From positions 1 through 39,391 of IMG/VR virus record IMGVR_UViG_3300013004_000081: DNA of 39,391 nt; one strand, 5' to 3'. Below the pieces are notes generated by a model. It saw only the letters and a program-made list of their open reading frames with translations, was not told the DNA's origin and searched no databases. The DNA comes from a virus. Below, one piece after another: positions 3,239 to 37,613 of this stretch; positions within the stretch are counted from its first letter, which is position 1, and each line of letters starts with the position of its first letter. The translations under genes and the position numbers were made by a program.

Positions 3239-3997
3239 TCATTCCGTTTTTATCTTCATGTTCTCCGCCACCCAGTCGACATACAGACTGATTCTCGTAT
3301 GAGCGCATTCGTCGCCGTAGTCCGAGTTTGACTTCCCATCCGTGGCCATCACGAAGGAATTTATCCCGGCCAGCTCATTGCCTATAAACAAACCTCCTCC
3401 GCTGTCTCCGCTTGCTATCATATATTCCAACTGGGTTTTTTTTCCTACGGAGTTTGAGCACACAAGGACATTCCTTTCTGTCCTTTCTATTATGTTAGAT
3501 CCTGCTCTTCTTATTCCGTCTGATTTAACATATCCTGTGGAAAAGGTTCCGGTCATTCCATATCCTGCCATGCTTACTACTTTTGACACCTCATCGTCTT
3601 TTTCGTACAGCTTTGGATAAAAATCCATGACTAATTCGCTTTCGCAATATCCTAAGGCTATGTCGTGATATCCTATTTCATCTTCCTTGAAGTCCTTGTT
3701 TATTATGATTTTTTTTATGTCATAATCCTTGCCTTTAATTGAAACCTTTACATCTTCCGCTCCGCTAACTACATGAGCCGCAGTAAGGATCCAATGAGGG
3801 TCAATCACCACGGCACTTGCGTAGAAAATGTGCTTATCTTCCTTCTTCTCGCAGCAGCATATTCCTTTCAAGCTTACCACGCACTCAAATTTGGATCCAT
3901 AATCCCTGTATTTCGAATCAGGAACCGAAGGGTCTATCGTACCCCCGAGCGAAAGAGAACTCATTACAAGTAAGATCAACATCCATGAGTATCGCAT
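3239..3997 (-). CDS. Secreted chymotrypsin-fold serine protease
   Basis: 252 residues with an N-terminal signal peptide (hydrophobic residues 5-18) and a complete S1-family triad: His75 in LTAAHV, Asp112 in HDIALG and Ser199 in GDSGGG. The residue six before the serine, which sets primary specificity in trypsin (Asp), is Met193, so Lys/Arg specificity is not expected. Several Cys residues (39, 47-49, 118, 180) suggest disulphides or metal binding outside the cytoplasm. Phage-encoded S1 proteases are uncommon; a role in the periplasm, in lysis or against a competitor is possible but unproven. No Shine-Dalgarno precedes the ATG, and TATAAATA ends six bases before it. The protease fold is confident, the biological target unknown. 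Confidence 0.88.
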   Translation of the reverse strand: MRYSWMLILLVMSSLSLGGTIDPSVPDSKYRDYGSKFECVVSLKGICCCEKKEDKHIFYASAVVIDPHWILTAAHVVSGAEDVKVSIKGKDYDIKKIIINKDFKEDEIGYHDIALGYCESELVMDFYPKLYEKDDEVSKVVSMAGYGMTGTFSTGYVKSDGIRRAGSNIIERTERNVLVCSNSVGKKTQLEYMIASGDSGGGLFIGNELAGINSFVMATDGKSNSDYGDECAHTRISLYVDWVAENMKIKTE

Positions 3998-4664: not shown

Positions 4665-5465
4665 TCAGTAAGTACTAAATGCAGCGGCTATAGCTTCCGC
4701 TATTTCATTTTGATGCTGGGATGGTGCAAAGTATTCCTCCCACTCCGAAGGCTGAGGATACCAAACATGTCCCTTTGCAGGAGATTGAACATCATGGCCG
4801 AAACTCTTGATCATTCCAGTTGACGGATCATAACTCATATCGATCATGAATTGTTCCACCCTCGCGGATCCGGGAGCCTCAACTCCTTGCCCCCGGGGTT
4901 CAAAAAATATCAAATAGTTTTGCTTATTCTTTATTTCTTTTACTCCTCTGAAAACAAATATTTCTGGAATTATATCTTTTCTTCGGCATAAGTTAGATAT
5001 TTTTAGCGTAAGTGAATCTAACTTTTCGTAATCATTTGAAGGCGACTCAGTGTCTCCATTACTTGCTTTTTTTATATGCTCAAACAATTCTGCGGCAAAA
5101 GACTCGTCAAATTTTTTATTAGAATGCATTAAGTCCTTGTAGGGTATTATTTTTTTGCACACCCACACGCTTTCTCCCTTCAAATTCGTCTGGAGCCTTC
5201 TCACTATGCTTTTAAAGGATCCTAGAGGACTTATGACCATCTGCATGGCTCCGGGCTCCCTGCCCCACTGAACTTGGTCCGGGTAGTCGGAAAAAGCCTT
5301 CCTTCCTCCAATTTCGTTAAGGAGCATGGTCTCTATCAATACTTCCGGATTGATAGGTATTATCGGACTTTCGTCCACGATTCTCGCAGGCACGACACGT
5401 TCTTTTTCAAACCCGAATATGTCCCTACCTTCTTTCAAATCCATCCATTTTTTAAATGTTTTCAT
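4665..5465 (-). CDS. Hypothetical protein with capsid-targeting-like N-terminus
   Basis: 266 residues beginning MKTFKKWMDLKEG: Phe4, Trp7, Met8, then LKE followed by Gly, the form of a T4 gp21 prohead-protease site ([IL]xE before a small residue). The remainder is soluble and mixed, with no motif I can name. It contains a stretch SLTLKISNLCRRKD and ends in an Ala-rich helix. There is no Shine-Dalgarno; TATATATC (5470-5477) ends four bases before the ATG. It heads a four-gene leftward run. A role as an internal or prohead-associated protein is inferred from the N-terminus only. Confidence 0.7.
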   Translation of the reverse strand: MKTFKKWMDLKEGRDIFGFEKERVVPARIVDESPIIPINPEVLIETMLLNEIGGRKAFSDYPDQVQWGREPGAMQMVISPLGSFKSIVRRLQTNLKGESVWVCKKIIPYKDLMHSNKKFDESFAAELFEHIKKASNGDTESPSNDYEKLDSLTLKISNLCRRKDIIPEIFVFRGVKEIKNKQNYLIFFEPRGQGVEAPGSARVEQFMIDMSYDPSTGMIKSFGHDVQSPAKGHVWYPQPSEWEEYFAPSQHQNEIAEAIAAAFSTY

Positions 5466-5469
5466 GCCA

Positions 5470-5477
5470 GATATATA
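5470..5477 (-). promoter_or_regulatory. Candidate late promoter box TATATATC
   Basis: A late-box-like octamer reading leftward, ending four bases before the ATG at 5465, with no ribosome binding site between. One of a set of similar boxes directly before start codons in this window. It is weaker than the exact T4 box at 4004, and the sequence could be chance in AT-rich intergenic DNA. Confidence 0.35.
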
Positions 5478-6648: not shown

Positions 6649-8042
6649 TCAATTATGGTCACATCGTGACCTTCCTTCTGCAATATTTTTATTCTCTTCT
6701 TGCTGTGCTCAAGAAGATATTCGTTATTGTGAAATACAAAATCGTAATAGTTCAACACTTCCTTGTCGTCTGCCGTTCTTAGTCCTCTTCCTACCCTTTG
6801 TATTATGTGGTGATCGGCTTGTCCTCCGGCAGCATTGATTACATTGTGAGTCATGACATTGATTCCTGCGGTCATTATTTGTTGTGTAGCTAGAGCCGTT
6901 ACTTTTTCTTTTGAGGTCTTGAGTTTGTCTATTACCATTTTTCTTGTCTCCAAGTCGTCCTTACCTTGAACCCACAATGCCCCAGGAATCAGAGAGGCCA
7001 AGGCGTCTCCTTGGGCTATTCTTTCAACAAGAATCAAGGTTCTCCCCTCAAGTTTCTCTGCCAATTCCTTTATCATCTCATGCAGGTGCCAGTTTTCAGC
7101 GATACCTCTCGTGACAGCATCCATGTACACCTCATATCTCAAGTCGGGCTCTCTCACCGGCATGAAAGTACATTTGGACTTAGAAAGAGTTCCTCGCTCT
7201 TGGAGATGGCTGGTCGTCAATGCTCCACCGACGCTCTTTGACTTGAGGGCTGGACCGAAATATCCCTTCACCAACCATTTTTGGCATTGGTCTTTCCCCC
7301 CGAACTTGAACGGCGTCGCACTCACCGCGGCACGGACGCTGCAGCTCTTGAGCTTGTTGAAGTACTTCTTGGGCTGCTTGCTCATGTTTTCATGTATTTC
7401 GTCTACTATCAAAACGCGGATCTTGTCGAGCAGAGGCTCCATCTTGTGCAAGCTTTGCACGGTCGAGCATGTTATTATGTTTGGACTGGCGTGCTTTCCA
7501 TAAAGCCTTCCCACATTATCGAATCCGTATTTGACTATTTCCTCGTAATTTTGCTCCACAAGGCTCTTCTTGTTGGCGAGGACCAAAGCAGGGCAGTTTT
7601 TGGGCATGGCCTTGAGTATCGCAAGCATTATCAGAGTCTTGCCGGCCCCGGTCGGAGCACATATCACGCCCCTCTTGTGCTTGATCAGCGAGTTCGTCAA
7701 GTCCACTTGGTAGTCGTACAAAGTCATTCCGCCGCCCAAGAAATTTTCATCTATCTCGTTGGCGACAAAGTTAAACTCGCCTCTCTCATCCATGATCTTG
7801 TATTCCTCGCCTATGTGGGCGAGGGCGGCCTTGACCTCGGGAAGAAGCCCCGTGAGGAACCTACCCGTCTTCTTGCTGAAGAACTCGGTGTATCCGTCCC
7901 ACAACTTTTGCTTGTAGAGCCTGCTATGGAAATACCCCCTCTCCCTGAACCTCATGTTTTCATGGAGTACGCTCAGGACCTCGGGCTTTTCACAATATAG
8001 CCACGAGTAGCAGTTTTGAATTCTTAGTATCGTTTCCTTCAT
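6645..8042 (-). CDS. uvsW: UvsW-like superfamily 2 DNA helicase
   Basis: 465 residues. An ATP-dependent helicase for recombination and fork or R-loop processing, as T4 UvsW is. SF2 motifs in order: Walker A APTGAGKT (129-136), DEIH (214-217), SAT (241-243) and motif VI QRVGRGLR (415-422). The N-terminal ~100 residues with RGYFHSRLYKQKLWDG resemble the UvsW N-terminal DNA-binding domain in layout. T4 UvsW is longer (587 residues). No Shine-Dalgarno lies before the ATG; TGCTATAGT, an extended -10-like sequence, lies just upstream. Sits between glycosyltransferase genes and is coupled to the downstream one. Helicase certain, UvsW orthology likely. Confidence 0.9.
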   Translation of the reverse strand: MKETILRIQNCYSWLYCEKPEVLSVLHENMRFRERGYFHSRLYKQKLWDGYTEFFSKKTGRFLTGLLPEVKAALAHIGEEYKIMDERGEFNFVANEIDENFLGGGMTLYDYQVDLTNSLIKHKRGVICAPTGAGKTLIMLAILKAMPKNCPALVLANKKSLVEQNYEEIVKYGFDNVGRLYGKHASPNIITCSTVQSLHKMEPLLDKIRVLIVDEIHENMSKQPKKYFNKLKSCSVRAAVSATPFKFGGKDQCQKWLVKGYFGPALKSKSVGGALTTSHLQERGTLSKSKCTFMPVREPDLRYEVYMDAVTRGIAENWHLHEMIKELAEKLEGRTLILVERIAQGDALASLIPGALWVQGKDDLETRKMVIDKLKTSKEKVTALATQQIMTAGINVMTHNVINAAGGQADHHIIQRVGRGLRTADDKEVLNYYDFVFHNNEYLLEHSKKRIKILQKEGHDVTIIE

Positions 8043-8071
8043 AATTGTTGACTATAGCACAAAATCCCCAA

Positions 8072-8887
8072 TCATGGAACAGATCCAAGCAGTTCCTTCC
8101 ATCCGGGGCTGTGTACGCATGTCGCTTTTACGAGCGTCGATCCGCTGGAGTTGAACCACGGCTCATACATGAATTTCTTTTCCTGCCTTATGACTCTTGG
8201 ATCATGGCTCATATTGAGTTGGCAAATTCCGTTTCTGCAAATATCGGGAGTTTTGTACTCGGGGTACATGTCCGCCAAAATAATGGAGAGAACCAGTTCG
8301 TCGTTGGAGCCTCTTCTTCCGTAGAAGTTTTTTATTTTGTGTGTCCATTTTTTAAAGGCATCGCATATTAATTCAATCTTTTCACAACTGATCACTATCA
8401 ATCCGCCATTGACATTCTTCCACTCTTTAAAGCCATTTTCTTTTGCGAATTCCTCGTGTCTTTGAAAGGTTTGTCCTTGCCACGACCACCCTCTATTGAT
8501 CCTGCTACTTACCTCCTCGTTTTCGGTGACTATGGACTGGCACCAAGCAGAGTAGAAGTCAGACTGATATATGCTCTCGTCAAAGTGCATTTTGTCAACG
8601 CACTCGCAGTCGCTGTCCAAGTATATTAGTTTTTTGAAGTCTTTGAGTATGTCTTTCATGCTCAAGAGCGATCCAAGCTTGAACGAGTACGATTGACCCT
8701 CCAAGCAGAAATCATTTATATCTCTGTCTAGCAGAACATGGATGTCACATAAGTTCGGCTTATTCGGAGACAAGCATGCGGTCACCGCCTCCTCGTTGAA
8801 ATTCTTTATCGTCCTGAACAAGTTGGAAGCCATCCGCTCAAAGACAGAGCCTTGAGCCACGGTGAATATCAATGTGTCGCTTTTCAT
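8072..8887 (-). CDS. Putative glycosyltransferase (GT8-like)
   Basis: 271 residues from ATG 8887, chosen because it forms an ATGA overlap with the preceding gene; the frame is open further upstream but inside that gene. It begins MKSDTLIFTVAQG and carries LIYLDSDCECVDK, a DxD motif after a hydrophobic strand, then VNGGLIVIS and SNDELVLSIIL, the order seen in GT8-type enzymes acting on nucleotide sugars. A late HSPGWKE may supply a metal-binding His. It follows the glycosyltransferase-methyltransferase fusion gene directly, so both may modify the same glycan. Substrate unknown. Confidence 0.7.
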   Translation of the reverse strand: MKSDTLIFTVAQGSVFERMASNLFRTIKNFNEEAVTACLSPNKPNLCDIHVLLDRDINDFCLEGQSYSFKLGSLLSMKDILKDFKKLIYLDSDCECVDKMHFDESIYQSDFYSAWCQSIVTENEEVSSRINRGWSWQGQTFQRHEEFAKENGFKEWKNVNGGLIVISCEKIELICDAFKKWTHKIKNFYGRRGSNDELVLSIILADMYPEYKTPDICRNGICQLNMSHDPRVIRQEKKFMYEPWFNSSGSTLVKATCVHSPGWKELLGSVP

Positions 8888-10250: not shown

Positions 10251-10258
10251 TATATATT
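10251..10258 (+). promoter_or_regulatory. Candidate late promoter box TATATATT
   Basis: A late-box-like octamer ending three bases before ATG 10262, with no Shine-Dalgarno. It lies in the 27-bp gap between two divergent genes. Matches the other boxes that sit almost on the start codon. Confidence 0.3.
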
Positions 10259-10261
10259 AGC

Positions 10262-10864
10262 ATGATCGGCTTCAGAGAGTGGCTCGGAAATACCGTCGGA
10301 ACGGAAAATGTTGACAGCAGCAAGATTGAATCCTTGTACAACAAGGCCAAATATGCTGTCAAACTAGTCCAATTATATGACAGTAAGACAAATCAGAAAT
10401 TGCTTACCAATATAAGTACCATAGCCAACTTGAACATGTCCGGAGTTTATGGACTCTACAATTCGGCTGAAAACAAAGATGTGATAGGGCCGGCCGCTTC
10501 CAAGACTAAATTTTTGTTTGGAAAACAAACATACAATCAGTACAAAAATAATTTGTCAAATTTGCCTCCTGCCGTCGTCAATCAATACAAGCCCGACTTG
10601 GATCCCGGAAATTTGGTTCCTTCTGATGTGATACATGTTAATGTTCGGGAAATAGTATCCAGATTTGGAGATACAAAAGAAGCGATCATAGAGATAGCGG
10701 GAACAATAGTTCACGAATGCACCCACCAAATAGAATTCAGAACAAAAGGTAAGACAAGTGAGGCGGGACCCGTAAGAGCCAAAGAAGCGTTTAAAGTTTG
10801 GGCCGACCCTGCCGGCCCAAACTGGAAAACCATAATTTCCGCGATTCCTCAGCTTAATTTTTAG
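10262..10864 (+). CDS. HExxH zinc metallopeptidase with capsid-targeting-like N-terminus
   Basis: 200 residues. The motif TIVHECTHQIEF gives HExxH at 151-155, with Glu167 and Glu175 downstream (SEAGPVRAKEAF) as candidates for the third zinc ligand of a gluzincin-type peptidase. The protein starts MIGFREWLGN, fitting Phe4, Trp7, Leu8 of the capsid-targeting-like pattern; no [IL]xE site follows. There is no signal peptide or membrane segment. No Shine-Dalgarno; a TATATATT box ends three bases upstream. Together these suggest a peptidase packaged in the capsid and delivered with the DNA. The metalloprotease motif is clear; packaging and target are inference. Confidence 0.75.
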   Translation: MIGFREWLGNTVGTENVDSSKIESLYNKAKYAVKLVQLYDSKTNQKLLTNISTIANLNMSGVYGLYNSAENKDVIGPAASKTKFLFGKQTYNQYKNNLSNLPPAVVNQYKPDLDPGNLVPSDVIHVNVREIVSRFGDTKEAIIEIAGTIVHECTHQIEFRTKGKTSEAGPVRAKEAFKVWADPAGPNWKTIISAIPQLNF

Positions 10865-11040
10865 TCTTTGAGAACGACATAAATGCCGTGTATCAGTCCC
10901 GCCAGATATAGGCCAAAAATGGTCAGAGCCAGGTTCACGCAAAAATGAAGGCCGAATCCCTTTTTCAAAGCCACGCCCAGAGGGGGCACAAAAATCGTCA
11001 CCAAAAGAGTTGCGATATCCCTATTGTCCATATTCTCCAT
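10861..11040 (-). CDS. Pmp3/YqaE-like small membrane protein
   Basis: 59 residues from ATG 11040, chosen for the strong AAGGAGG site upstream. The pattern fits the Pmp3 (UPF0057) proteolipid family: an N-terminal hydrophobic segment with FVPPLGVALKKGFG (17-30), then NLALTIFGLYLAGLIHGIYVV (36-56). Family members are stress-related plasma-membrane proteins in plants, yeast and bacteria that affect membrane potential and ion leak. In a phage it may adjust host membrane properties. It is convergent with the metallopeptidase gene (4-bp overlap) and divergent from the Pro/Gly-rich gene. Confidence 0.75.
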   Translation of the reverse strand: MENMDNRDIATLLVTIFVPPLGVALKKGFGLHFCVNLALTIFGLYLAGLIHGIYVVLKD

Positions 11041-11085
11041 GAGAACCTCCTTGTTGAAATCATCCACAATTATCTATTGGAAGCC

Positions 11086-11093
11086 TATATAAA
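11086..11093 (+). promoter_or_regulatory. Candidate late promoter box TATATAAA
   Basis: Late-box-like octamer ending five bases before ATG 11099, with no ribosome binding site between, which predicts a transcript starting at the start codon. It lies in the divergent gap 11041-11098. Confidence 0.45.
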
Positions 11094-11098
11094 ATCTG

Positions 11099-11467
11099 AT
11101 GAAGACTTTTCACCAATTTCTTATATCTGAGGCCACCCCTCCCGCTCCCCCTCCATCTAAATCCGGCGGAGGACCGGCGTCTGCCCCGCCTCCGCCGTCA
11201 GGCCCCCCAGGAGCCCCTCCGGGGCTCGGAGGCCCGCCTGGAGGACTTGGAGGCGGCATGGGCGGAGGCCCGCCTCCGGGTCTTGGAGGCCCGCCGGGAG
11301 GGCCATCTTTCAGCCCGGGAATGGGCGGCCCAGGAGACGGCCAACCGCAAGGCCAAAGCCAATCCGCAATCGTCAAAAGAATTGGATCCCATGATGTATG
11401 GACTTTTCTAAAGAATTCCTTGAAGAATAAGGCATCTGGACAGAGATCCAAAAATTCATTAGAATAA
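11099..11467 (+). CDS. Pro/Gly-rich protein with capsid-targeting-like N-terminus
   Basis: 122 residues. The start MKTFHQFLISEA is the closest match here to the T4 internal-protein leader MKTYQEFIAEA: Phe4, Phe7, Leu8, then ISE followed by Ala, a gp21-type cleavage site. Residues ~14-88 are low-complexity Pro/Gly repeats (PPG, GGPP). A short conserved-looking helical tail, GSHDVWTFLKNSLKNK, follows. The middle is probably disordered. GC content is far above that of the neighbours because of the repeats. A prohead-core or internal head role is plausible. It precedes gp47 on the same strand. Confidence 0.7.
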   Translation: MKTFHQFLISEATPPAPPPSKSGGGPASAPPPPSGPPGAPPGLGGPPGGLGGGMGGGPPPGLGGPPGGPSFSPGMGGPGDGQPQGQSQSAIVKRIGSHDVWTFLKNSLKNKASGQRSKNSLE

Positions 11468-19285: not shown

Positions 19286-19639
19286 ATGTCAAGTTTTAAA
19301 GATTTCGTCCTGAATGAGAGCAAGGTATACCTCCCTCAAAGGGTGGCTGACATACTGAGTGCGGTCCAAGATCTCATTGATTCCGACATGGGAGCAAGAC
19401 AACTTGTTTCAAATGCTCAAGCCATAGTCAATCGCATAAGGAGAATAATCCATACGCATTGGCCACAAAGCGACGAACCGAGCCTCTTGGTGCTCCAAAA
19501 GTGTGCAGTTGCCATAATGAAGGCAATAGACGAAAAGGGCGATGTGGCCGAGGTTCTGAAATCTTGTGAAAAATATCTTTCAAGAATTTCAGGAAAAAAT
19601 GAGTCCCCCATAAACGACCTGGGTGCAGACAAGACCTAG
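19286..19639 (+). CDS. Helical protein with capsid-targeting-like N-terminus
   Basis: 117 residues starting MSSFKDFVLNES: Phe4, Phe7, Val8, then LNE followed by Ser, which fits a gp21-type cleavage site. The rest is predicted helical (RVADILSAVQDLIDSDMG, LVSNAQAIVNRIRRII) with no known domain. There is no Shine-Dalgarno before the ATG, but also no clear TATATAA box. It is followed directly by the sigma70-type promoter at 19645. A packaged internal protein is inferred. Confidence 0.65.
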   Translation: MSSFKDFVLNESKVYLPQRVADILSAVQDLIDSDMGARQLVSNAQAIVNRIRRIIHTHWPQSDEPSLLVLQKCAVAIMKAIDEKGDVAEVLKSCEKYLSRISGKNESPINDLGADKT

Positions 19640-37004: not shown

Positions 37005-37613
37005 TCAGACCCCGACCAATCTTCTTCCGCTCGGATCATGAATGTCAGGGCGTTCCGGATGGCTATCATCGCCGCCGTCGTCTTCTCCGTCTATGTCGGT
37101 GTGGTCTATGACCATTTTGACCCACTCAGCTAACTGAAGGGGCGTCTTCAAGGGCGGGCCGTCAAACTCCGAAAGCGCCCCGGGAAAAGATACGCGTTCA
37201 TCCCGCTCGCTCAGTCTTATGTGGCCGTCCCTGTCAAGCAGACCCCTCATACTTGTGGGTTCGACCCCTGAATGCATTCCGGCAAGCCCTGTCCTTCCGT
37301 TAAATAAAAACATCGTGGCCTTTATCTTCATTTCCGCCCCGCCCTCCACGGAATCGTACTCAGAATCGGGTCGCTCAAGTATCGCGAACGCCCGCAGATA
37401 GAAGAACGCGGGCTTTTCAACCTTGGGGTTGTAGAATGCGGCAGAAAAGTCAAATGAATCCTTCGTGCCCTTGTCGGTTATCCATCCCCTCGGCTCTACG
37501 CTCCACTTGATCCACTCCGCATTGACCTTGAAATCAAGCGTCCTCTTCATCGCCTCGCCCGCTGCGGAGCCCATCACCTTCGCCTCTGCAAGCCACTGCC
37601 TAAAGCCGGACAT
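37005..37613 (-). CDS. Hypothetical protein with capsid-targeting-like N-terminus
   Basis: 202 residues starting MSGFRQWLAEAKVMGS: Phe4, Trp7, Leu8, then LAE followed by Ala, nearly the T4 internal-protein leader ending (IAE-A). The body has AEWIKWSVEPRGWITDKG and KIKATMFLFNGRTGLAGMHS, and an acidic tail (DIDGEDDGGDDSHPERPDIH). I do not recognise the domain. It overlaps the stop of the upstream structural gene (TGATG) and sits beside the neck gene, which fits a head-associated protein. Confidence 0.7.
   Translation of the reverse strand: MSGFRQWLAEAKVMGSAAGEAMKRTLDFKVNAEWIKWSVEPRGWITDKGTKDSFDFSAAFYNPKVEKPAFFYLRAFAILERPDSEYDSVEGGAEMKIKATMFLFNGRTGLAGMHSGVEPTSMRGLLDRDGHIRLSERDERVSFPGALSEFDGPPLKTPLQLAEWVKMVIDHTDIDGEDDGGDDSHPERPDIHDPSGRRLVGV

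Follow-up and report, generated by a model that had tools for sequence, protein, structure and literature searches.

Is the small protein encoded at one locus of the virus record IMGVR_UViG_3300013004_000081 a zinc metallopeptidase, and is it one that could be carried in the phage head and delivered with the DNA? We analyzed the whole 39,391-base record, here called the window. When the sequence was re-read, the open reading frame (ORF) was as the initial annotation had described it, with HECTH at residues 151 to 155, glutamates at both 167 and 175 and the start MIGFREWLGN (Table 1); no hydrophobic signal peptide was visible, in line with its claim that the protein lacks one. Since the window encodes a tail sheath, a sheath stabilizer, a baseplate hub, a ribonucleotide reductase and (by inspection) gp47- and gp46-like proteins, it is part of the genome of a large T4-like phage. 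A small Pmp3-family membrane protein (E = 1.3e-15) is encoded convergently with the locus, at 10861-11067 (-).

Table 1. Features of the protease locus and of related tagged genes (positions refer to the window unless a contig is named)
Feature	Position	Strand	Evidence or remark
Predicted tagged zinc metallopeptidase ORF, 200 aa	10262-10864	+	relatives; dN/dS 0.04-0.10 in close relatives
TATATA, T4-late-promoter-like box	10251-10256	+	ends 5 nt 5' of ATG; no Shine-Dalgarno sequence
Residues 1-10, MIGFREWLGN, capsid-targeting-like tag	10262-10291	+	motif control in T4, enrichment, variable linker
Residues 11-15, TVGTE	10292-10306	+	kept in most members
Residues 151-155, HECTH, predicted zinc-binding and catalytic motif	10712-10726	+	invariance in 43 members; zincin fold
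E158, conserved acidic residue, HExxH +3	10733-10735	+	alignment of 43 members
E167, candidate third ligand	10760-10762	+	Glu in at least 90% of 43 aligned members
K174-E175; Glu at column 174 in relatives (HEXXH-x18-E)	10781-10786	+	alignment of 43 members
Adjacent Pro/Gly-rich protein, same tag type (MKTFHQFLISEA), ISE/A site	11099-11467	+	late box 11086-11093
Further tagged late ORF, start MKTFKKWM	4665-5465	-	conserved in neighborhood; late box 5472-5477
Tagged candidates for injected enzymes (NADAR, C39, HAD_SAK, NUDIX, P-loop kinase, ART-like)	L072:1967-2461; L067:9897-10481; L075:2920-3579	-; +; +	
Tagged candidates, same set of enzyme types, continued	L134:7409-7843; L134:8560-9099; L106:14663-15265; L121:3256-4131	-; +; -; -	

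Two profile-guided scans of IMG/VR yielded first 13 and then 68 loci, which, with LR756511, a 595-kb phage genome, make up the known relatives. LR756511 was the single relative at the first search of annotated phages (41% identity), and the 50,697 annotated phage records held no relative besides one metagenomic genome. No cultured phage carrying the gene was found, the bacterial and archaeal genome contigs contained no relative, plasmids gave nothing meaningful, and the window had no DNA similarity to annotated phages; the same gene, at 100% amino acid identity, is present on an IMG/VR contig of 101,673 bases. Searches against Pfam, PHROGs and PDB sequences returned no match above the curated cut-offs. 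The top Pfam match, Inos-1-P_synth (E = 0.0012), fell below the cut-off, and it and Pox_VLTF3, also among the top matches, were treated as chance. Tox-MPTase3 (PF15639) reached 15.7 bits against a cut-off of 25 and was matched by 4 of 43 members at E <= 0.1, the Pfam SprT-like family gave only a nonsignificant E of 0.056 in 2 of the 43, and the polyvalent-protein MPTase families of Pfam were absent among matches at E <= 0.1. The gene, which is single copy wherever it is present in the contigs examined, is one of a family, without a name until now, of putative small zinc proteases encoded by huge T4-like phages.

His151, Glu152 and His155 are invariant in the 43 aligned relatives, the identity of which extends down to 39%, and Thr154, Glu158, Glu167 and a Glu at column 174 are each at least 90% conserved; the exceptions are Asp in a few members at column 167 and, at column 158 (HExxHxxE), Asp in the remaining members inspected. 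The dN/dS values of close pairs (0.037 to 0.099) imply a functional protein, and these low values together with the invariant residues indicate that HECTH is more than a chance occurrence. Of the two third-ligand candidates put forward initially, Glu167 agrees with the alignment, whereas the conserved downstream Glu lies at column 174 and not at 175: the window copy has Lys at column 174 and its Glu one residue on, while nearly all relatives have Glu at 174. This column-174 Glu is a probable zinc ligand in the relatives, and the resulting HEXXH-x18-E spacing favors a gluzincin on sequence grounds. A spacing of x19 from HEXXH to Glu also occurs in gluzincins such as thermolysin.

The lysine at a column that is otherwise nearly always Glu would be expected if the window copy had lost or weakened its catalysis and acted solely as a binding protein. 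We consider this very unlikely, given that His151, Glu152, His155, Glu158 and Glu167 are all intact, that Glu175 provides the x19 spacing and that the family-wide conservation argues for catalysis in general.

An AlphaFold2 model of the window protein, built with 43 sequences, had a pLDDT of 80 with a poor middle and placed the HEXXH motif in a predicted helix spanning residues 139 to 162. The top structural matches of this model were mostly zincin-like and weak (YbeY, Z = 4.5; TTHA0227, 4.4; selecase, 4.0), Foldseek found no match at E <= 0.001 in PDB or BFVD, and a SprT-like phage protein headed the viral structure library at an E value of only 0.21. In a second prediction (pLDDT 81), the first sequence was a relative, L129, and its best match in PDB was the zincin-like metalloprotease 3e11 (Z = 9.4 over 104 residues, 16% identity), with a Foldseek probability of 1.00. 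Further matches of the L129 model were Wss1 (Z = 7.9 over 99 residues at 3.1 A), M32 carboxypeptidase (6.9), TTHA0227 (2ejq; 6.3, 12% identity), selecase (6.3), the minigluzincins abylysin (5.6) and jannalysin (5.4), SPRTN (5.6) and IrrE (5.3). The fold prediction suggested in the initial annotation therefore bore out a zincin through the L129 model, whereas the window model alone gives weak zincin matches (Z = 4.0 to 4.5). On these models the family can be placed soundly in the zincin fold, at that level and without a subfamily. Taken together, the invariant HExxH, the modeled fold and the purifying selection support the zinc metallopeptidase claim well, and we regard identity as a zincin protease as highly probable.

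The appearance of Wss1 and SPRTN among the best structural matches would suit a protease that clears proteins off phage DNA, in the head or on entry, in the way that these two enzymes deal with DNA-protein crosslinks. However, a different zincin is the top match, scores are similar across many zincin families, and no DNA-binding segment was recognized. The third zinc ligand of Wss1-type proteases is His, whereas the conserved third-ligand candidates here are Glu. We therefore judge such a role to be highly improbable.

A start of the form F-x-x-[WF]-[LIF] is present in nearly every member, while the linker between it and the domain varies from a few to ~50 residues. Written as a regular expression, the pattern in the window protein is the same as in T4 IPII and IPIII; as a positive control, the expression retrieved IPII, IPIII and three others from 251 T4 ORFs. 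It fits 47 of 1,020 ORFs in LR756511 if the start may be any of the ATGs within the first 60 codons, with 29 ORFs tagged at the longest start relative to ~6 expected from the interior rate. The 101-kb contig has 13 tagged ORFs (8 at the longest start) versus 0.7 expected, and in most related contigs the motif is ~5 to 20 times above chance. The sequence [LI]xE[AGS], the kind of site that a gp21 protease cuts in T4, follows such tags in 11 of 55 cases, compared with 2.2 in shuffles. An [LI]xE prohead-protease site is present in 18 of 51 family members and absent from the window protein, the tag of which is possibly left uncleaved. We considered TVGTE as such a site and rejected it, as LNE/A or LNE/S stands near the N termini of the clade's capsid and gp21 proteins and the L129 subgroup lacks TVGTE. 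Elsewhere in the window, ORFs at 37005-37613 (-) and 19286-19639 (+) have tag-like starts (MSGFRQWLAEA and MSSFKDFVLNES, respectively) and an [LI]xE-type site, with no late box directly 5' of the ATG.

T4 and cyanophages have TATAAATA and NATAAATA as late promoters (PMC2984593). In tagged genes, a TATATA or TAAATA box ends 4 to 6 nt 5' of the ATG, with a peak at 5. Such a box lies 3 to 8 nt 5' of the ATG in 29 of 49 distinct family members, versus 2.4% of all ATGs; ~40% of members are without a recognizable box at the ATG, and some of the family have Shine-Dalgarno-like sites in its place. In LR756511, a late box accompanies 21 of the 45 tagged genes, compared with 51 of 906 others; across eight contigs, the figures are 33 of 97 and 91 of 1,500. 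For these counts, p-values overstate independence because the sequences are related. In T4, TATAAATA boxes lie mostly 10 to 30 nt 5' of the first ATG, compared with mostly 0 to 9 nt in LR756511; in the latter (L046-L075) and related contigs, boxes end ~5 nt before many ATGs that lack Shine-Dalgarno sites. Since a box so near the ATG implies that late transcripts should start at or next to it, leaderless late mRNA is predicted for the window gene, the TATATA box of which fits late expression from a gp55-type promoter. In the literature collection searched, leaderless late genes were not described for T4-like phages; leaderless phage mRNAs in general have been described (PMC5312081). The notion that leaderless translation itself causes the F-x-x-W-L start was dropped, as many late-box genes do not have that start. 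A trypsin-like protease with an apparent signal peptide (E = 3.4e-16) is encoded at 3239-3997 (-) of the window, and in the 101-kb contig a late box immediately precedes the ATG of the corresponding gene.

The late box would also suit a late cytosolic protease that is never packaged and that acts on host proteins or in lysis, its F-x-x-W-L start being an ordinary N-terminal helix. Packaging is itself no more than probable, and the Shine-Dalgarno-like sites that replace the box in some members would suit this view. Nevertheless, the start is kept though the linker varies, the motif is common to many unrelated late proteins, and there is no signal peptide or membrane segment, as many lysis proteins should have, so we find an unpackaged enzyme quite unlikely. 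The initial annotation had named production only late in lysis as an argument against delivery; this does not discriminate, because proteins packed into heads, such as the T4 internal proteins, must be made late.

A prohead protease of the gp21 type and a capsid protein of the gp23 type are encoded in related contigs, LR756511 included, and in L125, L095 and L104 the zincin gene lies 3' of the gp21-scaffold-gp23 head cluster with 1 to 3 ORFs between. Genes 47 and 46 are instead the neighbors of the zincin gene in the window and in the relatives nearest to it. The capsid-targeting-like start that had been pointed out initially thus gains statistical support from the T4 control, the enrichment, the variable linker, the late box and the head-gene neighborhood in several relatives, and packaging of the protease in the head is, on this sequence evidence, probable.

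A packaged protease need not be an injected one. Its tag could bring it to the prohead core as a second head-maturation protease that cuts core or structural proteins beside the gp21-type enzyme, without any role in the next host, a reading that the nearby head genes of several relatives and the late box would suit and that has a precedent in the conserved zincin of phiKZ-type (group 1) jumbo phages, for which a maturation role was proposed (PMC7824862). However, the clade already has a gp21-type protease, and the neighboring tagged proteins are enzymes of unrelated kinds. Moreover, 8 of 26 contigs searched on account of their capsid gene carry the protease gene. It is missing from contigs of 533, 343, 254 and 223 kb with capsid proteins 84 to 88% identical to that of the carrier L125 (87% for the 533-kb contig), with the proviso that absence was scored on possibly incomplete contigs and is not the same as absence from the phage. 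The gene is thus accessory in its phages, which counts against an essential maturation role; we consider this alternative unlikely.

From the computed HExxH conservation, the zincin fold of the family, the tag statistics, the late box and the patchy occurrence, we infer packaging, injection, catalysis and a host target, in the following sequence. Transcription late in infection from a T4-type promoter very close to the ATG would yield a leaderless mRNA, and the F-x-x-W-L tag would dock the protease into the prohead scaffolding core, as in T4 internal proteins. The enzyme would remain in the head during DNA packaging and enter the next host along with the DNA. There, His151, His155 and a downstream Glu would hold zinc, Glu152 would activate water, and the zincin domain would cleave a host protein, most likely one of defense or regulation. 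Injection and action on a host factor are inferred steps, and we place the complete proposal of a capsid-targeted, co-injected zinc protease acting on a host protein at an even balance. Against it stand, in the window copy, the missing Glu174, the missing [LI]xE site before the domain and the position beside genes 47 and 46 rather than head genes, as well as the share of members without a late box.

The internal proteins of T4 have only the tag in common, which led to their discovery, and once injected they block restriction enzymes (PMC3012670, PMC12373910); the T4 capsid-targeting sequence is an N-terminal signal of ~10 residues (PMC9958956). Like IPI, IPII and IPIII, the window protein combines a short N-terminal tag of the same pattern, a late gene, unrelated cargo and accessory occurrence. 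In contrast, IPI to IPIII are small inhibitors of restriction enzymes and the window protein is a predicted zinc protease; their genes have a leader with a Shine-Dalgarno site, whereas here the late box is at the ATG; and the window copy has no [LI]xE site. By analogy, it may work like a T4 internal protein, but with no cleavage site and a putative presence in virions we do not class it as one; its class is that of the zincin fold.

Zincins are the commonest domain of the polyvalent proteins delivered by phages and plasmids, and the MPTase domains of those proteins, thought to be delivered with DNA, share with our family the HExxH zincin motif, an acidic residue at HExxH +3 and, in the second C-terminal helix, a Glu whose counterpart here is a candidate zinc ligand (PMC5512222). 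They differ in being parts of large multidomain proteins, whereas the present domain stands alone behind a T4-type tag and matches none of the Pfam families of that type. Acel_2062 (PDB 3e11) and TTHA0227, which resemble the L129 model in structure, are bacterial proteins of unknown function with no detectable sequence relation to the family. The SprT-like and other zincins of jumbo phages are likewise phage HExxH proteins, with proposed roles in host-protein cleavage or virion maturation (PMC7824862), but the window family has no significant SprT-like match.

Among the other tagged proteins, NADAR (E = 2e-19), NUDIX (2e-19), HAD_SAK (2e-15), AAA_33 P-loop (7e-15) and C39-type peptidase (5e-14) members were recognized, along with weakly ART-like ones; several of these enzymes are of types known from host conflict. 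By inspection, two contigs without the zincin carry other tagged proteins, a C39-like one in L236 and an Ntn-hydrolase-like one beside the capsid gene in L240. The range of tagged enzymes suggests a swappable cargo set, paralleling the varied internal proteins of T4. More broadly, and as a tentative proposal to which we give slightly less than an even chance, huge T4-like phages may possess a whole regulon of late genes, each leaderless and each encoding a product with a swappable capsid-targeting tag, so that every virion would deliver varied enzymes at infection (zinc and cysteine peptidases, NADAR, NUDIX, HAD, kinase and ART-like proteins), the protease being one widespread member. If packaged and injected, the protease would parallel the T4 internal proteins as an enzyme, able to act on host defense before phage gene expression. 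Most genes of huge phages have no annotation, and combining the tag with the late box could serve to draw up lists of candidates for injected effectors among them; the tag also lends itself to a direct encapsidation assay in laboratory T4 infections.

The family consists of solo domains with the possible exception of L100, where an ORF at 7443-8591 (+) has the zincin domain and a tag-like FKEW segment fused after ~190 residues that start with MKFNERTLYHGT; an ART reading of this N-terminal part was set aside, as it relied on a YHGT motif seen by eye, with no Pfam support. In L013, L014 and L128, a module, GMKSRWSxxYKxSIxCxxPKGFSQKNYCKRxxRGG, is inserted between tag and domain, and the same module occurs in an unrelated 466-residue ORF of L106.
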